This document shows, in pieces, positions 15,401 to 59,532 of a stretch of 64,000 bases of DNA (the stretch's first letter is position 1; each line of letters begins with the position of its first letter). A model generated the notes under the pieces. It did not search any database, was not told the origin of the DNA, and worked only from the letters and a program-made list of their open reading frames with translations. This DNA is from Thermonema rossianum DSM 10300 (lineage in GTDB: Bacteria; Bacteroidota; Bacteroidia; Cytophagales; Thermonemataceae), in contig NZ_AUGC01000006.1 in assembly GCF_000426825.1 (NCBI RefSeq), positions 124,001 to 188,000 on the forward strand, written 5' to 3'. Position numbers and translations under genes: made by a program.

Positions 15401-15420
15401 AAGCCCCCGCTTGGGGGCTT
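15401..15420 (-). terminator. Terminator of the SusCD-protease operon
   Basis: AAGCCCCC and GGGGGCTT pair around a four-base loop; on the minus strand TTTTGCTTTTTG follows. Confidence 0.85.
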
Positions 15421-15447
15421 GCAATGATACATATAATACCTTTACGA

Positions 15448-16131
15448 CTACATTGATTCTATTGCAGCAAAGAGTCGAATGACTTCCTCTTCTTTTTTCA
15501 GTTTCATCTTATTTTTTGCTACAAAAGCTTCTGCTTCTTTACTATTCAGGGTTTTCAGTATGTCTTTTTTGTTAAGGCGTACTGCATGCATTTTACCATC
15601 TTTATAAATATAGTATCGCTTCTTGCGAATAAAAGATGTTTCATTCACGGCCGAGCCGTAGGTAGGAGCATTTTCAAATAACTCTACTTTTGTGCGGTAG
15701 AGGAAAGCGCCTTTTTTGCCCTCATAGAGCACCCGGTAAAAAGCAGATGAATTATTGCCATCTACCTCCGGATAGCCATTTTTATAAACATAGGGCTTTG
15801 CTTCCATATCCGATGACTCCGGCACATAAATAACAAACCCCTTAATGGTCGTTGGGTTCAGACGAAAGCTCTTGCCTTCTTTCAATAAAATCACCTCATC
15901 CGCATATTCATCATAACGCAACTTAACGTTTTTGAGGTGTTGCTCGCCTTCTGCCCAGATCTCTCCCTCAAGCCAGGCATCTACCAACCATGGGCTTCCC
16001 TTTACATTGGGATACCTGTTTTCCTTGACAGGGGTGCCATCAAAGGCTGTCACGTTTGAAATTTGTGCATAGCTGCTAACAGCAGCAAATACAAGTAGGG
16101 TAGTTGAAATAAATTGAAGTAATCGTAACAT
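15448..16131 (-). CDS. Secreted protein of unknown function
   Basis: The 227-residue product starts at the ATG at 16131, which gives a clear signal peptide (about 1-21, ending SSYAQ); the longer frame to 16170 would put 13 odd residues in front. The mature part is a predicted beta-rich domain (many Tyr/Phe strands) ending in a Lys/Glu-rich helix. I do not recognise the family. It lies 56 bases behind the S8 protease gene on the same strand and ahead of a terminator, so it is likely the last gene of the SusCD-protease operon and may be an envelope accessory of it. Confidence 0.8.
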   Translation of the reverse strand: MLRLLQFISTTLLVFAAVSSYAQISNVTAFDGTPVKENRYPNVKGSPWLVDAWLEGEIWAEGEQHLKNVKLRYDEYADEVILLKEGKSFRLNPTTIKGFVIYVPESSDMEAKPYVYKNGYPEVDGNNSSAFYRVLYEGKKGAFLYRTKVELFENAPTYGSAVNETSFIRKKRYYIYKDGKMHAVRLNKKDILKTLNSKEAEAFVAKNKMKLKKEEEVIRLFAAIESM

Positions 16132-16187
16132 AAGAAATTGAAATTTTAACAGTTTAACTTCTTCAATCAAACGGAAAATATTGAAAT

Positions 16188-19100
16188 TTATTGCTTTATA
16201 ATTCTTTTATGAATCAAGAAATCGTTGCTCTTAATGGTAAGAATATACATACCTGCCGGCAGGTTGGGGGTCAAAGTATCAACAAAAGTAAAGCTTTTCT
16301 TACTTTTTTCATATGATTGATACACGCGGCCGGCAAGGTCTGTAACAGAGAGTTCAAATTGTCCCTGCCATGAGTGCATGAGCTTAATATGCAGCTCACC
16401 GGTAAACGGATTGGGATATAGCTCCATTCCTTCGGCTACCTCCTCGGCAAGTCCATTCACAAAGAGGGGGGCTGTTTTGTAGGCACAGTTGGTGTTCCCC
16501 ACCACTGCATAGTACTCGCCTATTCCATACTCACCTACCGGCAATCCATTGCTCGTAAAGTCAGGAATAAGGACGCCATCTTTGAACCAGCGATAGAAAC
16601 CAACATTACCGTTTACATACAACTTACCACTCACATAAGACAAGTAAGGAGCTGAAGTGTAATTATAATTATTCACCTGAATGGTCTTGCTATTCATGTG
16701 GGTATTCGTTCCGTCTGAGACAGTCAAAGTTACTACATAACTGCCGGTTGAAGCATAAGTGTGCGTGGGGAAAGGCTCACCGGAAGTATTTCCATCACCA
16801 AAGTCCCAAAGATATGTTTGAATGGTACCGGTAGATTGGTTATTGAAGAAAGTGGTTCCATCGGCTACGCAAGAGTATTGTGCCGTAAAATCAGCAAACA
16901 ACACCTCGTCGCATCCTTGTTCAAGCCATCCGTTGGCATTGGTCAGTGTGCTTTGGGTAGCGGTTGCTACCAGGGGCTCCACTACATCCACATCGCTGAC
17001 TGTAAGATAAGAAGCACATAGCTTCATGGTACCTATTGAGGTAAGAGTGGCACTGCCTCCCACACCTGCCAGCACCACAGTGCCGGAAGCATCACCCGTA
17101 ATAGCAGAGCCGGTGCCTATAGACAGGGTTTTTCCGGTAGCTATTTGAATAATCGTACCGGGCATGGCTGTCAGCTGATGAATGCCTATATCGTTATTGA
17201 GCCCCAAAGTTCCATTATTCAAGGTTAAACGCTTCAAGGTGGCGCCGTCAGTACCATCTACCGACAAAGTAGTGGTGTTGTCCACGGTAATGTCGAAATC
17301 ATAATTTTCATTGTTCAATGACAAAGACGATGCGGTGCCGGAAAGTGCATTCAAACGTGCCCCATCGGATACAACACTCAAATTGGCATCGTTTAAGTCT
17401 ATGTTTTGAGCAAAAGTGAGCGTAGCATTTGTTAAAATAAGCTTTTTCTGTAAAGTGCCGCTTGGATAAATATTGTCCACACTGAACTCCTCATCTGACA
17501 AGTCCACTTCCCCTTGATAAATAGTTAAAGTACCAATGGATGCCACATTTTGGAAATCGGCTTTGGTGTTGGGGTCCACCATCCAAACAGAAACGACAGC
17601 CTTACTCCAGTCTGACTCGTTCAGATTGGCTATTAAGTCCCCTGAGTTGGTCCCCAAATCAATATAGCCGGTACCGCTTATATTCAATTTCCCTTCATTG
17701 ATCAATACCGAACCTTTTACAGTAAAGCGCTTGCCTTGCAAGTCCAATTGCTGAGTGCCTGAAGCTGCCCAGTAAATTTGAGCTGCGTTTAAGTCTTGTG
17801 AAAGAGTCAAGGTGTTTCCATTTCCGGAAAAAGCATTGGCACCAAACACCAAACGTTTGGTAGCATCGGGCATAGCGGAGCCGGTGCCGTCGGGGGCTGT
17901 TGCCCAGTTCGCAGGATCTGCCAGGTCACCGCTTCCGCCCTTCCAGTAAAGTACCGAAGCAGGTGCCGAAGCATCGGGCGCCTCCAGTATAATGGAAAAA
18001 GCCTGTGGTGCAGCGATAAGCGTACCTTTGTGAGATACGGTCACGGTATAGTTACCCGGTGCGGAAGGGGTAAATTCTATTTTCTCTACGTTGTCCACGT
18101 TGTTTACCCCTTTGGTGGCCGGTCCGGTGGGCGTGGCAGGACCAATCCAGGGGAAATATTGGTTATTCGAGGCGTCGGTAATCACCACGTCCAAGTCATT
18201 GACCAAAGCGGGCGTGGGGTCATCCAGACCGGTAGAGAGGTTCGTACCCGGCACATCGGTCCAGCAGAGGGTAAGCACCACCGGTGCCGTGGCATCTGTA
18301 TAAAAAGTAAAGGAATAGGTATCGCCATTGTTAAGTGCTGCCTCTACGATACGAATATTTTGCCCGTTTTCATTCCATATCACCCGGGCGGCATGCTCAA
18401 TATCAGCCAAGCCCCAACCATACCAATGGTCGGGACCCGGGTTGGGTCCGGCTTCTTTGGCGGTTTGAATCACCAAACCTTTCAGCGTAGCCGCCCGCAT
18501 ATATTGCCCATGCAGCTGATAGTAAAGCTGCTGAAGCAAAATCAAAGAACCTGATAAGTTCGGTGTAGCCATAGAAGTGCCACTCATTGTGCCGTAGGCA
18601 TCATCGGCACTGCTCACTGTGGAATAAACACTCACGCCTGCCGCTACTATGTCGGGCTTGATGCGCCCGTCATCGGCCGGTCCCCGCGAGCTGAAGCTTG
18701 CCAATTTCACACTGGATGGGTCTGTGTAGTTCGTGACCTTTTCCACGGCACCCACTGCCAGTATATTTTTCGCCATACCTTCGGGCCCTATACAATCCCC
18801 ATTATCAATTGCCCCATCGGGAGGCTGCGGTCCCGGCCCTCCATTTCCATCACCGAAATCATTCCCTGCTGCCCAGCAAATCAGATAATAAGGAGCGTTA
18901 TAGGCTACATTGTCTATGGCTTTCGACTCTGAGGTATAAGCACCAAAATCGGGGTCTTCATTGCCGGCGCCCCCGGTCCATTCCCAACCGGAGCCATTCC
19001 AGTACCATCCTTGTACCGTTCCGTAGGAGTGGTTGGATACCAGCAGCTCGTTGGCGGCTTCCTGCGCCATCTCTGCCAGGTCATTGTTCCAGTAGTAGGT

Positions 19101-19631
19101 GTGTGCCACTGCCTCCGGCGCCATACCCTTGGCAGAAGGGTCTACACCGGCAGCAATCATAGTGCCTGTCACGTGAGTGGCATGGGCACTAAGGGCGGTA
19201 CCATCGCCGGCCGCCTGCACACGCCCGCCAAATTCTTGATGCGTGGCACGTACATTGCCACCATCCCATACACCAACCACCATACCTTTTCCGGTCAAGC
19301 TCAACCCCAAGCTGCCCCCCGGATGTAACTGATTGGTGCCAATCGTGGCGGCTGCTCCTACATTTTTGGTTTCACGGTACACCGGCTGCCCGTCAGGTGT
19401 TACATCTACTATTTCAATGATTTTTCCGTTGGGCAGTTCCACGCGTGTGCTTACCCCCTTGGCTGCTGCATACTGGGCCACTCTTTGGCGCGCTGCTTCA
19501 TGCAGTTGCGTGTACTGCTGCGCCAACTCCAACAGGCGTTCTTTATTGGTTTGCTGCTGTGCTTGTGTTTGCCCCACAAAAATCGCACAGAGTATCCATA
19601 GCCGGTAAATGTTTTTTAAGAACTTCTTCAT
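16188..19631 (-). CDS. T9SS-secreted subtilisin-like (S8) serine protease with PKD domain
   Basis: The 1147-residue protein has a signal peptide (1-25), a short propeptide-like region and an S8 peptidase domain (about 110-420) with the catalytic triad visible: D123 in GVWDGG, H150 in HATHVTGT and S353 in GTSMATP. A beta-rich central region with repeated Asn/Thr-rich strands follows, then a PKD domain (about 925-1000, WDFGDG core) and a type IX C-terminal sorting domain (about 1065-1147, YPNPFTGEL near its start and a basic terminal IIKQ). It should be exported through the outer membrane and attached to the cell surface. It is downstream of SusCD and a lipoprotein, which suggests protein degradation for uptake. 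Confidence 0.95.
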   Translation of the reverse strand: MKKFLKNIYRLWILCAIFVGQTQAQQQTNKERLLELAQQYTQLHEAARQRVAQYAAAKGVSTRVELPNGKIIEIVDVTPDGQPVYRETKNVGAAATIGTNQLHPGGSLGLSLTGKGMVVGVWDGGNVRATHQEFGGRVQAAGDGTALSAHATHVTGTMIAAGVDPSAKGMAPEAVAHTYYWNNDLAEMAQEAANELLVSNHSYGTVQGWYWNGSGWEWTGGAGNEDPDFGAYTSESKAIDNVAYNAPYYLICWAAGNDFGDGNGGPGPQPPDGAIDNGDCIGPEGMAKNILAVGAVEKVTNYTDPSSVKLASFSSRGPADDGRIKPDIVAAGVSVYSTVSSADDAYGTMSGTSMATPNLSGSLILLQQLYYQLHGQYMRAATLKGLVIQTAKEAGPNPGPDHWYGWGLADIEHAARVIWNENGQNIRIVEAALNNGDTYSFTFYTDATAPVVLTLCWTDVPGTNLSTGLDDPTPALVNDLDVVITDASNNQYFPWIGPATPTGPATKGVNNVDNVEKIEFTPSAPGNYTVTVSHKGTLIAAPQAFSIILEAPDASAPASVLYWKGGSGDLADPANWATAPDGTGSAMPDATKRLVFGANAFSGNGNTLTLSQDLNAAQIYWAASGTQQLDLQGKRFTVKGSVLINEGKLNISGTGYIDLGTNSGDLIANLNESDWSKAVVSVWMVDPNTKADFQNVASIGTLTIYQGEVDLSDEEFSVDNIYPSGTLQKKLILTNATLTFAQNIDLNDANLSVVSDGARLNALSGTASSLSLNNENYDFDITVDNTTTLSVDGTDGATLKRLTLNNGTLGLNNDIGIHQLTAMPGTIIQIATGKTLSIGTGSAITGDASGTVVLAGVGGSATLTSIGTMKLCASYLTVSDVDVVEPLVATATQSTLTNANGWLEQGCDEVLFADFTAQYSCVADGTTFFNNQSTGTIQTYLWDFGDGNTSGEPFPTHTYASTGSYVVTLTVSDGTNTHMNSKTIQVNNYNYTSAPYLSYVSGKLYVNGNVGFYRWFKDGVLIPDFTSNGLPVGEYGIGEYYAVVGNTNCAYKTAPLFVNGLAEEVAEGMELYPNPFTGELHIKLMHSWQGQFELSVTDLAGRVYQSYEKSKKSFTFVDTLTPNLPAGMYILTIKSNDFLIHKRIIKQ

Positions 19632-19684
19632 ACCACCTTACGATTTGTTCTATGTTTCAACAGTAATCCATCTTCTCTATAAAC

Positions 19685-19714
19685 ACCTATAGGCATCTTT
19701 CGATGCCTATAGGT
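19685..19714 (-). promoter_or_regulatory. Stable intergenic hairpin before the protease gene
   Basis: Perfect 13-base arms (19685-19697 and 19702-19714) enclose a loop that reads GAAA on the minus strand, a GNRA tetraloop. No T-run follows in the direction of transcription, so it looks more like an mRNA processing or stabilising element, or an attenuator, than a plain terminator. Confidence 0.6.
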
Positions 19715-19751
19715 CAACTCAAAATTTAAGAAAACCAACCTTTATTATTTA

Positions 19752-20543
19752 TTATTTTTTAGTAAAAGTGTGCGTATTGTCATCTATCACTGCTCCCCCA
19801 GAGCGAACTTGATAATCAACTTTAAAAGACCCGTCACAGGTATTAGGCTTAGAAGGGCTGGAACCATCTACCTCATAAGACCCAAATGTTTGAGTGGGGA
19901 TTGTCACAGAAGCGCCATCTGACGCAAACACATAATCTATCTCTGCTCCTACATCCCAGAAATTATCGTTTTTAAGCGTCGTTCCGGACACCAAGGAGAA
20001 GTTTACCTCATAAGTAGCGTAGCCCGGTTCGAGACAGTCGTAAGTACCAATGAAAGTATTGATGTCGAAAGGACAAGTACCAAAAGTATAACGCAAATTC
20101 TTGAAATTCTCAGCAGGTACATATTCACCTCCCCCTTCAAGGACAAGATAGAGATCATAAAGTTCAGTTAAGTTGTCATCTAAGATCTCAATCTTCAACT
20201 CCCCAGATGTTTCCCCGGCAGGAATAGTAATTTCCTTACTGGGCAAGTTATAGTGAACCCCCTCTACAGCAGTAGAAGAATCCGGCAATACTGCAACGGT
20301 TATTGTTACATCTTGCTCGGGAAGTTTCCCTACCAAGTTTATCTTTAAAGATTTCTCAACCGGGAGACCGTCTTGATTAATATCAATCACATCCGGCGAA
20401 AGCGAGCTGCCTGATGTAAGAATATCGAACTCAACGAAGGGTTTCCCTTCATATTTAATAGTAGTTCCGGGGTCTTCCATACAGGAGCTCAGCAGAGCGG
20501 CTCCGGTCAGAAACAAACCTATTGTGTATAATATCTTTTTCAT
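19752..20543 (-). CDS. Surface lipoprotein of a SusCD locus
   Basis: The 263-residue protein has a lipobox (LLSSC, Cys21) and a beta-sandwich region (about 35-145) with the EGVHYNLPSKEITIPAGETSG pattern split over two strands, typical of Calx-beta/DUF1735-like domains in Bacteroidota lipoproteins. A second beta domain makes up the C-terminal half. Following susC and susD, it is the usual place for an accessory surface glycan- or peptide-binding lipoprotein. The ligand is unknown. Confidence 0.85.
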   Translation of the reverse strand: MKKILYTIGLFLTGAALLSSCMEDPGTTIKYEGKPFVEFDILTSGSSLSPDVIDINQDGLPVEKSLKINLVGKLPEQDVTITVAVLPDSSTAVEGVHYNLPSKEITIPAGETSGELKIEILDDNLTELYDLYLVLEGGGEYVPAENFKNLRYTFGTCPFDINTFIGTYDCLEPGYATYEVNFSLVSGTTLKNDNFWDVGAEIDYVFASDGASVTIPTQTFGSYEVDGSSPSKPNTCDGSFKVDYQVRSGGAVIDDNTHTFTKK

Positions 20544-20592
20544 AGTTACTAAAATTTAGAATTTTATTCTATATACCACACACCTTTTAAAA

Positions 20593-20617
20593 GGTAACCG
20601 GCAAAATACCGGTTACC
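20593..20617 (-). promoter_or_regulatory. Intergenic hairpin after susD
   Basis: Nine-base perfect arms (20593-20601 and 20609-20617) enclose a seven-base loop. On the minus strand TTTT follows, then AAAAGG. It could be a weak attenuator that lowers expression of the genes behind susCD. Confidence 0.5.
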
Positions 20618-20638
20618 CCAAGTGCAAGAATTGATTGA

Positions 20639-22066
20639 TTAATTATAGCCGGGGTTTTGCACCAATACACCACCGGAAGTAATGATGTCTTGATTAGAAA
20701 GGGGTGCCAGCACTTTGAAATCATTGTAAGGCAATGGTGCACCGCCATCTTTCAAGATATCTTGCCCCAAGCGCTTAAGGTCGAAGAAACGATGTCCTTC
20801 AAACATCAGCTCTTTACGGCGCTCATTCATGATGACATCTATAAGGGCTGAGCCAGTGGCTGTGGTATTTGTCAAGCCACGATTGCTGCGCAAAATGTTG
20901 ATAGTGGTTTGAGCTTCACTGTCTTTACCTTGACGCGCTTCGGCTTCAGCCTGAATCAGCAGCACCTCTGAGTAACGGATAACCGGAATGTTGCGGCAAT
21001 TAACATCACCTCCTTTGCCGCCCAACCACTTCAGCAAGCGCCAGAAGCCTGTTTGGGTATCTTGATCCCAGAAGCCGATGCGCACATCGCCGGCTTCGGC
21101 ATTCAACAGCGCCAACAGATCTGCGGAAGCCTGCACGCTAAAGTTGTTACCGTTAGAAGCGATGTTATTAGTCAGAGAACTCAACGAGTTGTTCAAACCA
21201 TCTACTGTACTCCAGTCTATTGTAGGATTAATGTCCAATTCAAAGATAGACTCCGGATGGGGTACAGTAAGTGCATCCCAATCGCTTACAACATCAGCTG
21301 CCGCAGAGATGGTTGCAGTAGTTGAGCTCAAAGCATTTTGAGCATAGGTTTCAGCATTGGGGTAGTCCCCCTCATAAAGATATACACGTGCCAAGAGCGC
21401 TTCTGCTGCTGCCTTACCGGCACGACGCGGAGCATTAGCCGGGTCATTGCCATTCAGCAAATTAATAGCTTCAAGCAAGTCATTTTTCACTTGAGTATAT
21501 ACCTCGGTATTCGTAGCACGAGGCTTGGGTTCGGCATCCGAAGCTCCTTTAATAGGTGCTGTACGTATCACGGCACTCAGGTTGAAACCATTCACTTCTT
21601 TACCCGGCTCATAGCCGTAAGCACGGGCAACATCAAAGTGGCAAAGTGCTCGTAAGAAAAGCGCTTGCCCTTTGATTTGGTTGGCAGTGGATTGCGATAT
21701 TTTACCATCTGCCAACAGCTGTTCTACCTTATCTATGGCATAGTTGGCATAGTTGATTACAGTATAAGCATTAAACCAAAACCCATAATGTGCATAGATT
21801 TGGTTGGCATTTTCTGCCACATAACGCCCGGTGTTGTTGGCAATTTCAGCATTGTCTGCCAACACATCGCCCATGACCATCATCTCTTGGCCATAGTAGT
21901 TAAAGCGGTGCATCTCACGATAAGCTGCATTCAAAAAGCCAATCGCTGCCGTGGAGTCAGTAAGTAGGTCCTCGGTTACGGCTGTGTTGGGCTTTACGTC
22001 CAAGTCACAAGAGGTGATACCTCCCATGAGCAAGGCACTCAATATGAACAAATATATTTTTCTCAT
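20639..22066 (-). CDS. SusD/RagB family nutrient-binding lipoprotein
   Basis: The 475-residue lipoprotein (ITSC lipobox, Cys20) shows the SusD/RagB pattern: an N-terminal alpha-helical TPR-like part (AYREMHRFNYYGQEM onwards), the ALFLRALCHFDVARAYG block, and a C-terminal region with VIRYSEVLLIQAEAEARQG and NERRKELMFEGHRFFDLKR. It forms the lid over the SusC barrel and captures substrate at the cell surface. It starts 19 bases after susC ends. Linkage to a secreted protease suggests peptides, as in RagB, but glycans cannot be excluded. Confidence 0.96.
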   Translation of the reverse strand: MRKIYLFILSALLMGGITSCDLDVKPNTAVTEDLLTDSTAAIGFLNAAYREMHRFNYYGQEMMVMGDVLADNAEIANNTGRYVAENANQIYAHYGFWFNAYTVINYANYAIDKVEQLLADGKISQSTANQIKGQALFLRALCHFDVARAYGYEPGKEVNGFNLSAVIRTAPIKGASDAEPKPRATNTEVYTQVKNDLLEAINLLNGNDPANAPRRAGKAAAEALLARVYLYEGDYPNAETYAQNALSSTTATISAAADVVSDWDALTVPHPESIFELDINPTIDWSTVDGLNNSLSSLTNNIASNGNNFSVQASADLLALLNAEAGDVRIGFWDQDTQTGFWRLLKWLGGKGGDVNCRNIPVIRYSEVLLIQAEAEARQGKDSEAQTTINILRSNRGLTNTTATGSALIDVIMNERRKELMFEGHRFFDLKRLGQDILKDGGAPLPYNDFKVLAPLSNQDIITSGGVLVQNPGYN

Positions 22067-22085
22067 AGTCTAATTTTCTTTTGGG

Positions 22086-25000
22086 TTAGAAACCTAACTG
22101 AATACCGGCACTAAACTGCTTGGGGTTCGGATAGTTGATGATGGTAGAAGACAATGTACCATTGAAAGCATTGGCGTTTACTACCTCGGGGTCCATCAGG
22201 TTGGACTTGGTCCAGGTCCAGAGGTTCAAGCCTTGCACATATACACGCAGGCTTCTGGCCCCAATGGATTTCATGATGCTTTGAGGCACATCGTAAGATA
22301 AGGTCAACTGCTTCAAACGCACATAAGAAGCGTCTTCCAAATAGAAGCTTGAAGCAAATAAACCACCACCATTTGAGTACACGCCACCTTCAATGGGCTT
22401 AGGCATGTTGGTCACATCACCCGGCTGCTGCCAGCGATCCAAAATCAACACAGACTGGTTGCTTCCGTCAGGTGCACCATTCAAGATGTTTGCCCAGAAG
22501 TCACCATTAAAGGCTTTGTTGCCAATCTGGTACTGGAAGAAGACTGTCAACGACAGGCCTTTGTAAGAGAATACGTTGTTCCAACCACCGAAGAACTTGG
22601 GCGTATTGGAGCCTAAGAATTTGTTGTCTCTTTGAGTAGGCTGGTAGGTGATATTGCCCAAGGTATCGTAGTACATGGGAATACCATTTGCCGAGTTTAC
22701 CCCTGCATATTCAGGCAACCACCATACTCCTATGGGCTGTCCTTTATGCAAAACAACATCACCGGCACCTACATCTACAGTAATACGATCTTGATTATTG
22801 GGTAGTTTTTCTACTTTATTTTGCAAGAATGAGATATTGAAGCTGGAGGTCCATTGGAAATCACCTTTATCCAAAGGCACACCGCCAATCTCTATATCTA
22901 TACCACGGTTACGGATGACTGCATCGGTGTTACCGGTGATGGAGTTAGGCGAACCGGCATCGTTTACGAGGTCAACAGGTAAAAGCAGGTCCTGATTCTT
23001 TTTATCCCACAGGTCAACAGAACCATAGAGACGATCGGCAAACAAACCAAAGTCTAAACCAATATTGGTCTGATAAGATGTTTCCCAAGTAAGGAGGTCA
23101 TTACCCAACACATTAGGAGCAAGCCCTGCACCACCTAAGTACTGTCCGGCAGAAGCGAAGGTGCTGCGGTTACGGAAATTACCAATTTCAGCATTACCTA
23201 CCTTACCGTAGCCAACACGCAGCTTCAAGTTAGACAAGAAAGCCGCACCATCCATGAAGTCTTCTTCTGAGATAGCCCATGCACCGGATACTCCCCAGAA
23301 AGTACCATAGCGATTCTTAGCACCAAAGCGGGATGTTCCATCACGACGAATAGTGGCGTCCAGATAGTATTTACCGGCATAATTGTACTGCACCTTACCA
23401 AAAATACCCTGGCGAATGTACTCTCTGGTAAGGCCCCCAACATCGCGAGGTTTGGAAGCAGCATTCAGGCCGGTCAATCCTTGGTTGGGCAACTGATTAC
23501 CTTGTGCAAAAGTTAGCGTAAAGTTTTCATTACGCACCTCACCACCAGCAATGGCAGCTATATTATGTACATCAGCAAAAGTACGCTGGAAGTTCAAGGT
23601 CACACTGGTGTTGTAGTCGAAGGAGCGACGGTAGGTTTCTGAAATCAACCCTCCCAAACTTGCAAAAGCAGGAATAGTAGCCGGACGGAAGTTAAAGTCT
23701 TTATTCACGGAGTAATCAAGACCACCGAAAGCTACCAACTTCAAGCCTTCAACGATTTGATAGTTCATCTGCATGGAGCCGATGGTCTTGAAGATAGAGC
23801 CTTCGCGACGCTCTTGGTTCACCCCTTGTACAATGTTGTAGTTGAAAGCCCACAAACCATCGCTACGCTGGGCATAAGTTCCATCAGGATTATAAGGCGA
23901 GGTAGTGGGAGTAGCAACAAACGCACCAAAGAAAGGCGAGTTCAGGTAGTTACCAACAGCACCACTTGATACAATATCATTGGAAATTGCTCCAAAGATC
24001 TTTTGGTTCGACACATTCAAGGTCATATCCAAGGACAAGCGGTCGGAAAGTTGCTGGGTAGTATTCAAGCGCAACACATAACGCTCCCAATAGTTTTTGA
24101 TAACTTGTCCGTCTTGTCTGTCGTAAGCACCACTCACAAAGAATGAGCCTTTGTCATCACCTTTGCTTGCAGACAATGAGTAAGAGCTCAGGCGTCCGGT
24201 TCGGAACAACTCATTCACCCAGTCGAAGTTGGTCAGATTCGGATCATCAGGATCGCCATATCTCGCTGCTCCGGAAGGATAATAAGAGCCGGGTCCGTTC
24301 GCGTTTTCCCAAGCTTCTTTCTTGATTTGAGCAAACTGACGTCCGTTCAACACTTTGTACGGATTCAAAGGCTGATTAATACCTTCTTGCACATTCAAAG
24401 TAAACTGAGGCTTGCCCTTTCCACGCTTTGTACGGATAATTACCACACCATTGGCTGCTTGTGCACCATAGATAGCTGCGGCCGAAGCATCTTTCAATAC
24501 CTGAATAGATTCAATGTCATTGGGGTTGATACCACCCAATACGTTGTTAGAACCTTGTCCGGACAAAGCCCCGCCTTGTATTTGTACGCCATCTACGATG
24601 TAGAGCGGTGCATTGGAAGCCAAGGCAGAGCCGGTACCACGGATACGGAAAGTCAAAGCTCCACCGGGAGCACCACTGGTTGCCTGCACCAAAACACCGG
24701 AGAGACGGCCTTGCACGGCACGGTCAAAGGTCTGGAGTGGCAGGTTCTCAAAATCTTCACCTTTTACGGCAGCTACTGAACCGCTGATGCTCAGCTTATC
24801 GATAGTACCATAAGAGGTAACCACCACCTCCTCTAAGCCCATGGGCTTCAATGAAACATCCAGAGAGGTCTGGGTGCCCACGGTAATCACTTGTTGCTGA
24901 TACCCTACAAAGTCAACTACCAGGGTAGCACCTTCGGGCACGGTCAAGGTGAAGCTACCGTTGGCGTCGGTCACGGTCCCGATAGACGGGTTGTCCTTCA

Positions 25001-25133
25001 CATACACGCTGGCTCCGGGCAGGGGTTGTCCCTGGTCATCTTTGACGGTACCGGAGATTGTTCTGTCTTGCGCAAAAGCCCAGAGGCTTGTCAACAGCGC
25101 CAAGACAAAACTCATGAGTACACGATTTCTCAT
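22086..25133 (-). CDS. SusC/RagA family TonB-dependent outer-membrane transporter
   Basis: The 1015-residue protein has a signal peptide (1-21), a CarboxypepD_reg-like domain (about 24-95), a TonB box (EEVVVTSYG, 101-109), a plug with the SusC-specific APLYIVDGVQIQG and NPNDIESIQVLKDASAAAIYG blocks, and a 22-strand barrel ending in an aromatic residue. It imports oligomers delivered by SusD using TonB energy. It is the first gene of the operon and has a well-formed promoter. Its substrate is not readable from sequence. Confidence 0.97.
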   Translation of the reverse strand: MRNRVLMSFVLALLTSLWAFAQDRTISGTVKDDQGQPLPGASVYVKDNPSIGTVTDANGSFTLTVPEGATLVVDFVGYQQQVITVGTQTSLDVSLKPMGLEEVVVTSYGTIDKLSISGSVAAVKGEDFENLPLQTFDRAVQGRLSGVLVQATSGAPGGALTFRIRGTGSALASNAPLYIVDGVQIQGGALSGQGSNNVLGGINPNDIESIQVLKDASAAAIYGAQAANGVVIIRTKRGKGKPQFTLNVQEGINQPLNPYKVLNGRQFAQIKKEAWENANGPGSYYPSGAARYGDPDDPNLTNFDWVNELFRTGRLSSYSLSASKGDDKGSFFVSGAYDRQDGQVIKNYWERYVLRLNTTQQLSDRLSLDMTLNVSNQKIFGAISNDIVSSGAVGNYLNSPFFGAFVATPTTSPYNPDGTYAQRSDGLWAFNYNIVQGVNQERREGSIFKTIGSMQMNYQIVEGLKLVAFGGLDYSVNKDFNFRPATIPAFASLGGLISETYRRSFDYNTSVTLNFQRTFADVHNIAAIAGGEVRNENFTLTFAQGNQLPNQGLTGLNAASKPRDVGGLTREYIRQGIFGKVQYNYAGKYYLDATIRRDGTSRFGAKNRYGTFWGVSGAWAISEEDFMDGAAFLSNLKLRVGYGKVGNAEIGNFRNRSTFASAGQYLGGAGLAPNVLGNDLLTWETSYQTNIGLDFGLFADRLYGSVDLWDKKNQDLLLPVDLVNDAGSPNSITGNTDAVIRNRGIDIEIGGVPLDKGDFQWTSSFNISFLQNKVEKLPNNQDRITVDVGAGDVVLHKGQPIGVWWLPEYAGVNSANGIPMYYDTLGNITYQPTQRDNKFLGSNTPKFFGGWNNVFSYKGLSLTVFFQYQIGNKAFNGDFWANILNGAPDGSNQSVLILDRWQQPGDVTNMPKPIEGGVYSNGGGLFASSFYLEDASYVRLKQLTLSYDVPQSIMKSIGARSLRVYVQGLNLWTWTKSNLMDPEVVNANAFNGTLSSTIINYPNPKQFSAGIQLGF

Positions 25134-25177
25134 AAGACTTGCTTTTTTTGGTTTTTGTTTAGAATAAACTTACAGCC

Positions 25178-25210
25178 CAAATATATAGATTTTATTTCCA
25201 AATCACCAAA
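25178..25210 (-). promoter_or_regulatory. Promoter of the SusCD-protease operon
   Basis: On the minus strand TTTGG (25206-25210) and TATATTTG (25178-25185) are 20 bases apart, matching both Bacteroidota promoter boxes. The leader to the SusC start is about 40 bases. Confidence 0.75.
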
Positions 25211-42539: not shown

Positions 42540-42542
42540 AAG

Positions 42543-42962
42543 GAGCGGGCAAGCCTGTAAGCCGGGTTCTGTTCCCTTCCTTTGCGGAAGGGCGCTTACC
42601 ATTTATCTGGGCTTGGCATTGCTGCCAAGCTCAAACGACCTACCCGCCGGCGTCGGGCGAGCCACCCTTAGCACCGCATATGATATGAAGGTGCTTGCCG
42701 GCCTATTTGGTCTTTCGGCGCGTAAGGTTTACCGTGCCTCCGCGTGTCACCACCGGAGCGGTGGGCTCTTACCCCACCTTTTCACCCTTGCCTGTGCGCC
42801 GCTAATGCGGACGCCATCGGCGGTTTGTTTTCTGTGGCACTGTCTGTCCCCTGCCCTTTGAGAGGCAGGAGCCTTCCCGTTAGGAAGTACGCTGCTCTAT
42901 GCCGCCCGGACTTTCCTCTGCTTGTGCCTTACGCCAAGCAGCGGTAAGCCAGCTTGCCCGGT
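42543..42962 (-). ncRNA. rnpB: RNase P RNA (type A-like)
   Basis: The RNA component of RNase P, which trims the 5' ends of tRNA precursors. On the minus strand the conserved 5' P4 segment AGAGGAAAGTCCGGGC appears (complement near 42900-42921), and the 3' segment ACAGAACCCGGCTTACAGGC (near 42550-42573). The ends pair as P1 (GGGCAAGC with GCTTGCCC), which sets the boundaries to within a few bases. Length of about 420 nt is normal. Open frames across this region are not coding. Confidence 0.95.
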
Positions 42963-59452: not shown

Positions 59453-59526
59453 GAGGTTGTAGCTCAGTTGGTTAGAGCGCCAGATTGTGGCTCTGGAGGT
59501 CGCGGGTTCGAATCCCGTCTTCCTCC
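59453..59526 (+). tRNA. tRNA-His (GTG)
   Basis: The cloverleaf is clear: D arm GCTC...GAGC, anticodon stem CCAGA/TCTGG with the loop TTGTGGC giving anticodon GTG, and T loop TTCGAAT. The base before position 1 is G (59452) and the discriminator is C (59526), giving the G-1:C73 pair specific to tRNA-His. CCA is not encoded. Acceptor positions 5-68 and 6-67 are both T-T. Confidence 0.97.
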
Positions 59527-59532
59527 CTCTGC

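Follow-up and report, generated by a model that had tools for sequence, protein, structure and literature searches.

SusCD pairs, in which a SusC-type TonB-dependent transporter is combined with a SusD-type lipoprotein lid, are usually taken as a hallmark of glycan use. Which cargo is imported by such a pair if the enzyme encoded next to it is a secreted protease? This question is raised by a block of five genes in the thermophile Thermonema rossianum DSM 10300, located at positions 15,401 to 25,210 of the analysed stretch of 64,000 nucleotides (contig NZ_AUGC01000006.1, positions 124,001 to 188,000; here called the window; 49.1% guanine plus cytosine). The genes code for SusC, SusD, a surface lipoprotein (LP), an S8 subtilase sorted by the type IX secretion system (T9SS) and a secreted protein, g5. 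The initial annotation had read the block as an operon for protein utilisation, and we conclude that the locus is probably a protein-feeding system, in which the secreted subtilase is combined with peptide import by SusCD.

Nutrition and exported proteins of T. rossianum

According to the excerpted text of PMC5982127, T. rossianum can hydrolyse casein as well as gelatin but neither starch nor xylan, and assimilates casamino acids and none of the listed sugars; genes for the initial catabolism of sugars are described there as missing. For an organism that is unable to use sugars yet carries three SusD genes, as found in the searched genome (2,954,967 bases, 24 contigs), a cargo other than food glycan can be argued by elimination. 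No GH13 glycoside hydrolase was found in this genome; 13 of 14 control genomes do contain one. The search for T9SS tails gave 30 matches, 27 of them above cut-off, of which 21 were examined (20 by Pfam, one by subtilase profile). Nine of these 21 cargo proteins are peptidases (three S8, two M43 and one each of M4, M12B, M28 and M36), and no glycosidase domain was detected among the 21 at E ≤ 1e-4. Because casein and gelatin are hydrolysed, no sugar is used and the examined T9SS cargo is rich in peptidases and without glycosidase, we regard the breakdown of proteins with uptake of the peptides as the best reading of the locus, and import of peptides, the presumed cargo, is well supported by this context. 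The protein utilisation proposed initially is further supported by the retention of the subtilase ortholog with one SusCD clade in two families, as detailed below.

A second SusCD pair of the genome (contig C12, locus L013, C12:44500-64000) is preceded by a co-oriented gene for a T9SS-sorted M4 thermolysin-like peptidase, from which it is separated by a single small gene. Approximately 3 kb past the other end of the pair, a KP-43 subtilase is encoded in the opposite orientation.

The abundance of general peptidases in the secretome also bears on a reading in which the importer serves not for bulk food but for one particular micronutrient or signal, such as a metal bound to peptide, haem or a vitamin, that is freed by the protease. 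This would be in keeping with the mere three SusD genes of the genome, with the presence of one locus of this kind in each genome of the relatives inspected, and with the existence of micronutrient systems composed of TonB-dependent transporters and surface lipoproteins, as described in excerpts of PMC10404256 and PMC13142918. Neither profile nor Pfam searches recognised an iron, haem or cobalamin gene in the block, and, given the many general peptidases, such a specialised cargo is regarded as very improbable.

Proteins encoded by the block

All five co-oriented genes of the initial annotation were found on the minus strand, in the places it had given (Table 1), and the identities of SusC, SusD, the lipoprotein and the T9SS-sorted S8 protease with a PKD domain were borne out by Pfam and TIGRFAM-type profiles. 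Pfam revealed no glycoside hydrolase among the five proteins, as had been claimed, and no other carbohydrate-active enzyme of the kind whose linkage defines a polysaccharide-utilisation locus.

SusC scored 785.7 bits against the TIGR04056 cut-off of 368.25 over its full length and is followed after 19 nt by the gene of a SusD-family lipoprotein, conforming with a SusCD-type importer. Its best solved relative is 8aa4 (E 1.6e-115), which we take to be a glycan transporter; RagA, aligned over the full length, is second (E 1.2e-93), and the SusC of BT2261-2264 is more distant (E 2.3e-45). For SusD, the best solved relatives are 3kez (E 4.5e-36) and 3myv, and 28 solved SusD sequences are closer than RagB, with an E value of only 0.0019. 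The choice of RagAB as the closest comparison could therefore not be upheld at the sequence level; the likeness may hold for the mode of working, not for family membership.

LP, with the lipobox LLSSC, reached 37.8 bits against the cut-off of 34.5 for PF16132, identifying it as a DUF4843 surface lipoprotein, and Calx-beta (PF03160) was visible below cut-off, in agreement with the Calx-beta-like surface lipoprotein first proposed. A fold search with its AlphaFold2 model (mean predicted local distance difference test score, pLDDT, 84.2) revealed a resemblance of residues 30-158 to Calx-beta structures (Z up to 11.7) and of residues 159-262 to BT2262 (5fq3; Z 9.8, root-mean-square deviation 2.6 over 99 residues; 5fq8 chain G, Z 9.3). 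The match to BT2262 is one of fold but was not found by the sequence profile search; against the PDB, sequence searches with LP and g5 gave nothing useful, and the profile search with LP gave only a weak match to 3p02. Since DUF1735-type proteins (3sot, 3n91, 3p02) match across both LP domains, this plan is not confined to peptide systems. Neither of the two papers found on DUF4843 concerns SusCD, judged by its title.

The relation of SusC to 8aa4 and the two-domain plan that LP has in common with DUF1735-type proteins would also suit a transporter of a glycan or glycoconjugate exposed by the protease, as in loci that target glycoproteins. Such a cargo is at odds with the genome, which is without GH13, and with the Pfam scans, in which neither the locus nor the 20 cargo proteins covered showed a glycosidase, as well as with the failure of T. 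rossianum to use any tested sugar and its lack of genes for initial sugar catabolism (PMC5982127, excerpt). We consider import of glycans highly unlikely.

The subtilase was assigned to the KP-43 subfamily, as its residues 111-548, comprising the S8 domain and a C-terminal barrel, align to KP-43 (1wmd; E 1.9e-25) and its catalytic triad (D123, H150, S353) is intact; these three residues and N257 are invariant across four relatives. Its C-terminal tail scored 51.2 bits against the TIGR04183 cut-off of 23, which marks it as type A cargo of the T9SS.

For g5, the first ATG, at 16131, is the most likely start of the gene; the open reading frame delimited mechanically begins at a TTG at 16170. That the fifth protein is secreted and of unknown fold, as had been stated, agrees with the results, since g5 has no Pfam match and its AlphaFold2 model (pLDDT 83.3, predicted template modelling score 0.77) found no fold match in the PDB: Foldseek returned nothing at E ≤ 1e-3, the best hit of a second comparison had Z 4.1, and no match was obtained by profile search against the PDB. 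The missing PDB match of this predicted structure is no proof of a new fold. A pattern search of viral contigs gave 42 matches, none of them a relative of g5. The protein is linked to the SusCD of the block in several genomes. Of 194 genomes of the order, 116 contain a member of its family, which often lies apart from SusCD in the loci inspected.

Table 1. Positions of the five genes, their domains and signals, and two RNA genes elsewhere in the window.
Feature	Position	Strand	Remarks
Bacteroidota-type promoter TTTG-N21-TATATTTG 5' of susC	25178..25210	-	10/10 consensus positions; 44 nt before the SusC ATG
SusC-type TonB-dependent outer-membrane transporter, 1015 aa	22086..25133	-	TIGR04056, full length
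SusD-type lipoprotein lid, 475 aa	20639..22066	-	PF07980 and PF14322 above cut-off; lipobox GGITSC
Hairpin in the SusD-LP gap	20593..20617	-	9-bp core, short T run; fold z -3.80, 0/200 shuffles as low
Surface lipoprotein (LP), 263 aa	19752..20543	-	N-terminal DUF4843/Calx-beta domain, C-terminal barrel-like domain
Hairpin in the LP-protease gap	19685..19714	-	13 bp, GAAA loop, weak T run; z -4.85, 0/200 shuffles
T9SS-sorted KP-43-type S8 subtilase, 1147 aa	16188..19631	-	PF00082, PF18911, PF18962 (Por_Secre_tail) and TIGR04183 above cut-off
S8 catalytic domain, residues 114-407	18411..19292	-	PF00082, full length
PKD domain of the subtilase, residues 928-986	16674..16850	-	PF18911
Type A T9SS sorting domain of the subtilase, residues 1071-1147	16191..16421	-	TIGR04183
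g5, secreted protein, 227 aa	15448..16131	-	beta-rich body and three C-terminal helices
Intrinsic terminator between g5 and rsmH	15401..15420	-	8-bp stem, 6 G-C pairs, T-rich tail
RNase P RNA, class A	42542..42960	-	
tRNA-His	59453..59527		

Conservation and transcription of the block

For the comparison with relatives, loci were taken for most LP matches at E ≤ 1e-10; L094, L098 and L100, which duplicate the genomes G026, G006 and G065, were excluded from tree and counts, and the counts of LP length and hairpins cover 43 SusD-LP pairs. The complete order SusC-SusD-LP-S8-g5 was found at eight loci (the window, the congeneric G007, G026, G093, G055, G163, UBA2366 and Ww80), and Prado063 and WB-IL-14 agree with it up to their contig ends. 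Gene order is mostly the same in f20, another family of the order, where the flanking genes differ from those in the family of the window; the block is thus conserved independently of its chromosomal site. In the SusD tree (50 rows, two short SusD fragments excluded), the block SusDs form one clade of 13 rows, 11 of them with S8, and in the S8 tree (30 rows), 11 linked enzymes and one unlinked enzyme form one clade of 12; both clades received a value of 99 in the Shimodaira-Hasegawa-like approximate likelihood ratio test.

When nine f20 genomes were searched (E ≤ 1e-20), five had exactly one KP-43 enzyme, which was always the linked one, and four had none. Among 395 genomes of the class, five contained the KP-43 subclade of the window (at least 655 bits), and each of these has either the block or the variant of G068, in which a fasciclin-domain gene lies between LP and S8 and g5 is in facing orientation; the remaining KP-43 enzymes scored at most 572 bits. 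At other KP-43 loci, a SusC or SusD match within six genes was found in three of 20 (two weak, one six genes off), none with the block arrangement.

Further variants were a short LP with g5 and no S8 (G041, G155, G106, G187) and the order SusC-SusD-LP-g5-S8 in G004. The linked S8 of G004 falls in another KP-43 subclade, with its closest relatives in G006, G003 and G005 recovered as separate loci, and the best reading, judging from the trees, is that a KP-43 enzyme became linked to this transporter a second time, independently. S8 is linked in 12 of 20 loci with a long LP versus 0 of 23 with a short one; a common evolution of long LP and S8 is only suggestive, as no more than one or two contrasts on the tree are independent. 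The type of those 23 loci, in which SusC-SusD is accompanied by a short DUF4843-like LP, is found widely across the order. One and the same chromosomal site in genus g36 is occupied by either SusC-SusD-long LP-S8-g5 (L074, L078) or SusC-SusD-short LP-g5 (L075, L076, L077), and the SusDs of the two cassette types are distantly related, pointing to an apparent swap of the whole transport cassette.

Beyond the terminator, the window continues with rsmH, ftsL and a penicillin-binding protein gene (ftsI-like). A different SusC-SusD-LP operon lies directly upstream of rsmH, like the block, in three genomes of the same family (L116, L119 and L121 from G006, G004 and G003); it ends in an extra lipoprotein, with fasciclin domains by Pfam in L119.

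The initial annotation assumed one operon running from promoter to terminator. Both end signals are real: the promoter fills exactly the predicted interval, and the terminator was confirmed. A perfect promoter score by chance is not negligible, as 11 of 200 Markov shuffles of the 200-base AT-rich stretch reach 10/10, and G007 has the same perfect susC promoter at an almost equal distance (2 of 200 shuffles). A single uninterrupted transcript is doubtful because of the strong hairpins in the SusD-LP and LP-protease gaps. The former is also present in G007 (z -5.12) and rare elsewhere at that position (5 of 43 gaps). The latter, counted from at least 8 bp and found as 12-20 bp, is kept in the LP-S8 gap of 10 of 10 loci, with 0.4 expected from shuffles, and is followed by a T-rich tail in nine of them; in the other gaps, hairpins were found in 0 of 9 (S8-g5) and 2 of 49 (SusC-SusD). 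Since a hairpin also follows LP in 5 of 6 loci where g5 comes next and in 17 of 27 where neither S8 nor g5 does, the LP-S8 hairpin would mark the end of an older SusC-SusD-LP unit.

Behind this hairpin, a perfect promoter was found in G026, UBA2366 and Prado063 (equalled by 3, 4 and 2 of 200 shuffles) and a 9/10 match in Ww80 and G093 (46 and 18 of 200). No recognisable promoter was found in the LP-S8 gap of the window or of G007, where the best matches were 7/10 and 6/10 (equalled by 186 and 200 of 200 shuffles), nor in those of G055, G163 and WB-IL-14. From these signals, the hairpin is predicted to act as a terminator in relatives, often with a new promoter behind it, and separate transcripts of SusCD and protease look likely there. 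In Thermonema, where the hairpin has a weak T run and a promoter is not recognisable, the protease genes are probably dependent on read-through, with the hairpin as a putative attenuator.

Such a division could also mean that two independent neighbours are present, namely a conserved SusC-SusD-LP importer, whatever its cargo, and a separate surface protease unit of subtilase and g5 that lies behind it by chance. The hairpins or terminators after LP, the promoters before S8 in three genomes, and the many trios without S8, to which G006 adds a locus without linked S8, would fit this explanation. It does not account for S8 orthologs that remain with one SusD clade across two families despite differing flanks, nor for the separate relinkage of a KP-43 enzyme in G004; at the g36 site, SusC-SusD-long LP-S8 or SusC-SusD-short LP without S8 is found, and the genes were therefore gained or lost together. 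Mere adjacency is judged improbable.

Proposed function and relation to known systems

Several observations weigh against protein feeding. Related SusC-SusD-LP trios are mostly without a protease, as seen in the short-LP loci; G006 retains SusCD-LP-g5 with no linked S8, and the S8 of G065 is on a separate contig. SusCD is nearer in sequence to solved homologs other than RagAB. An S46 dipeptidyl-peptidase, the enzyme that serves the periplasmic step in Porphyromonas gingivalis, was sought in the T. rossianum genome for that step and not found. According to the excerpt of PMC5982127, neither Thermonema species assimilates tryptone, and for T. rossianum the entry for peptone is given as not determined.

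In the protein-feeding system favoured here, the KP-43-type subtilase would be exported by the type IX system and cleave proteins at or near the cell surface, and the resulting peptides would be captured by the SusD lid, possibly also by the two-domain LP. TonB would pull them through SusC, and after further cleavage in the periplasm they would enter the cytoplasm, perhaps via POT-family transporters, of which two genes were found above cut-off in the genome. The g5 protein may be an accessory of the transporter or of the protease. The block would consist of two adjoining modules, SusC-SusD-LP and protease-g5, divided by the conserved hairpin.

A bolder version is a proteolytic utilisome, in which LP would be docked to SusC and keep the T9SS-anchored subtilase positioned above the SusD lid, g5 being a new-fold adaptor, so that cutting and import would be carried out by one surface machine. 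Glycan utilisomes are reported as surface machines in the excerpted text of PMC7618045, and the count in favour is the company that the longer LP keeps with S8; assembly into such a complex is rather unlikely.

The C-terminal domain of LP has a fold like that of BT2262, a lipoprotein of the BT2261-2264 complex of Bacteroides thetaiotaomicron. To our knowledge, BT2261-2264 has no linked subtilase, and the rag locus of P. gingivalis is without a linked protease or DUF4843 lipoprotein. RagAB is likewise a SusCD-type pair and imports oligopeptides, and BT2261-2264 combines SusCD with surface lipoproteins, its SusCD pair being reported to import oligopeptides (excerpts of PMC10132118). The same excerpts describe a susCD locus with peptidase genes and predicted oligopeptide uptake in Flavobacterium collinsii (TRV642_0198-0209), whose peptidases belong to S9, S37, M24 and M43 and not to the T9SS KP-43 subtilases as in Thermonema. 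For Flavobacterium psychrophilum, the SusCD pair THC0290_2100/2101 was proposed to import peptides from a secreted, co-upregulated collagenase; in the part of PMC9723704 at hand, the genes are described as sharing one co-regulated expression cluster rather than forming a single block. KP-43-type S8 enzymes with a T9SS C-terminal domain are known from Bergeyella cardium (SpBcA-C, two of them active in vitro), and the excerpted text of PMC11982257 contains no occurrence of SusC, TonB or operon. A link of SusCD to the beta-barrel assembly machinery (BAM) complex, prompted by PMC12611786, was dropped, the block not being named in its excerpted text.

At the level of titles and abstracts, the five-gene block is not described in the literature searched, nor was the phrase 'peptide utilization locus' found. 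As SusCD loci with peptidases have already been proposed for oligopeptide uptake (PMC10132118, PMC9723704, both in excerpt), the block extends a known idea; what is new is a well-conserved, protease-linked variant of SusCD, not the founding of a new concept. That its SusCD is nearest to structures other than RagAB cautions against inferring the cargo from whichever solved homolog is closest. With its conserved linkage to a protease, the block offers a defined, cultivable system for asking whether protease and importer form one machine.

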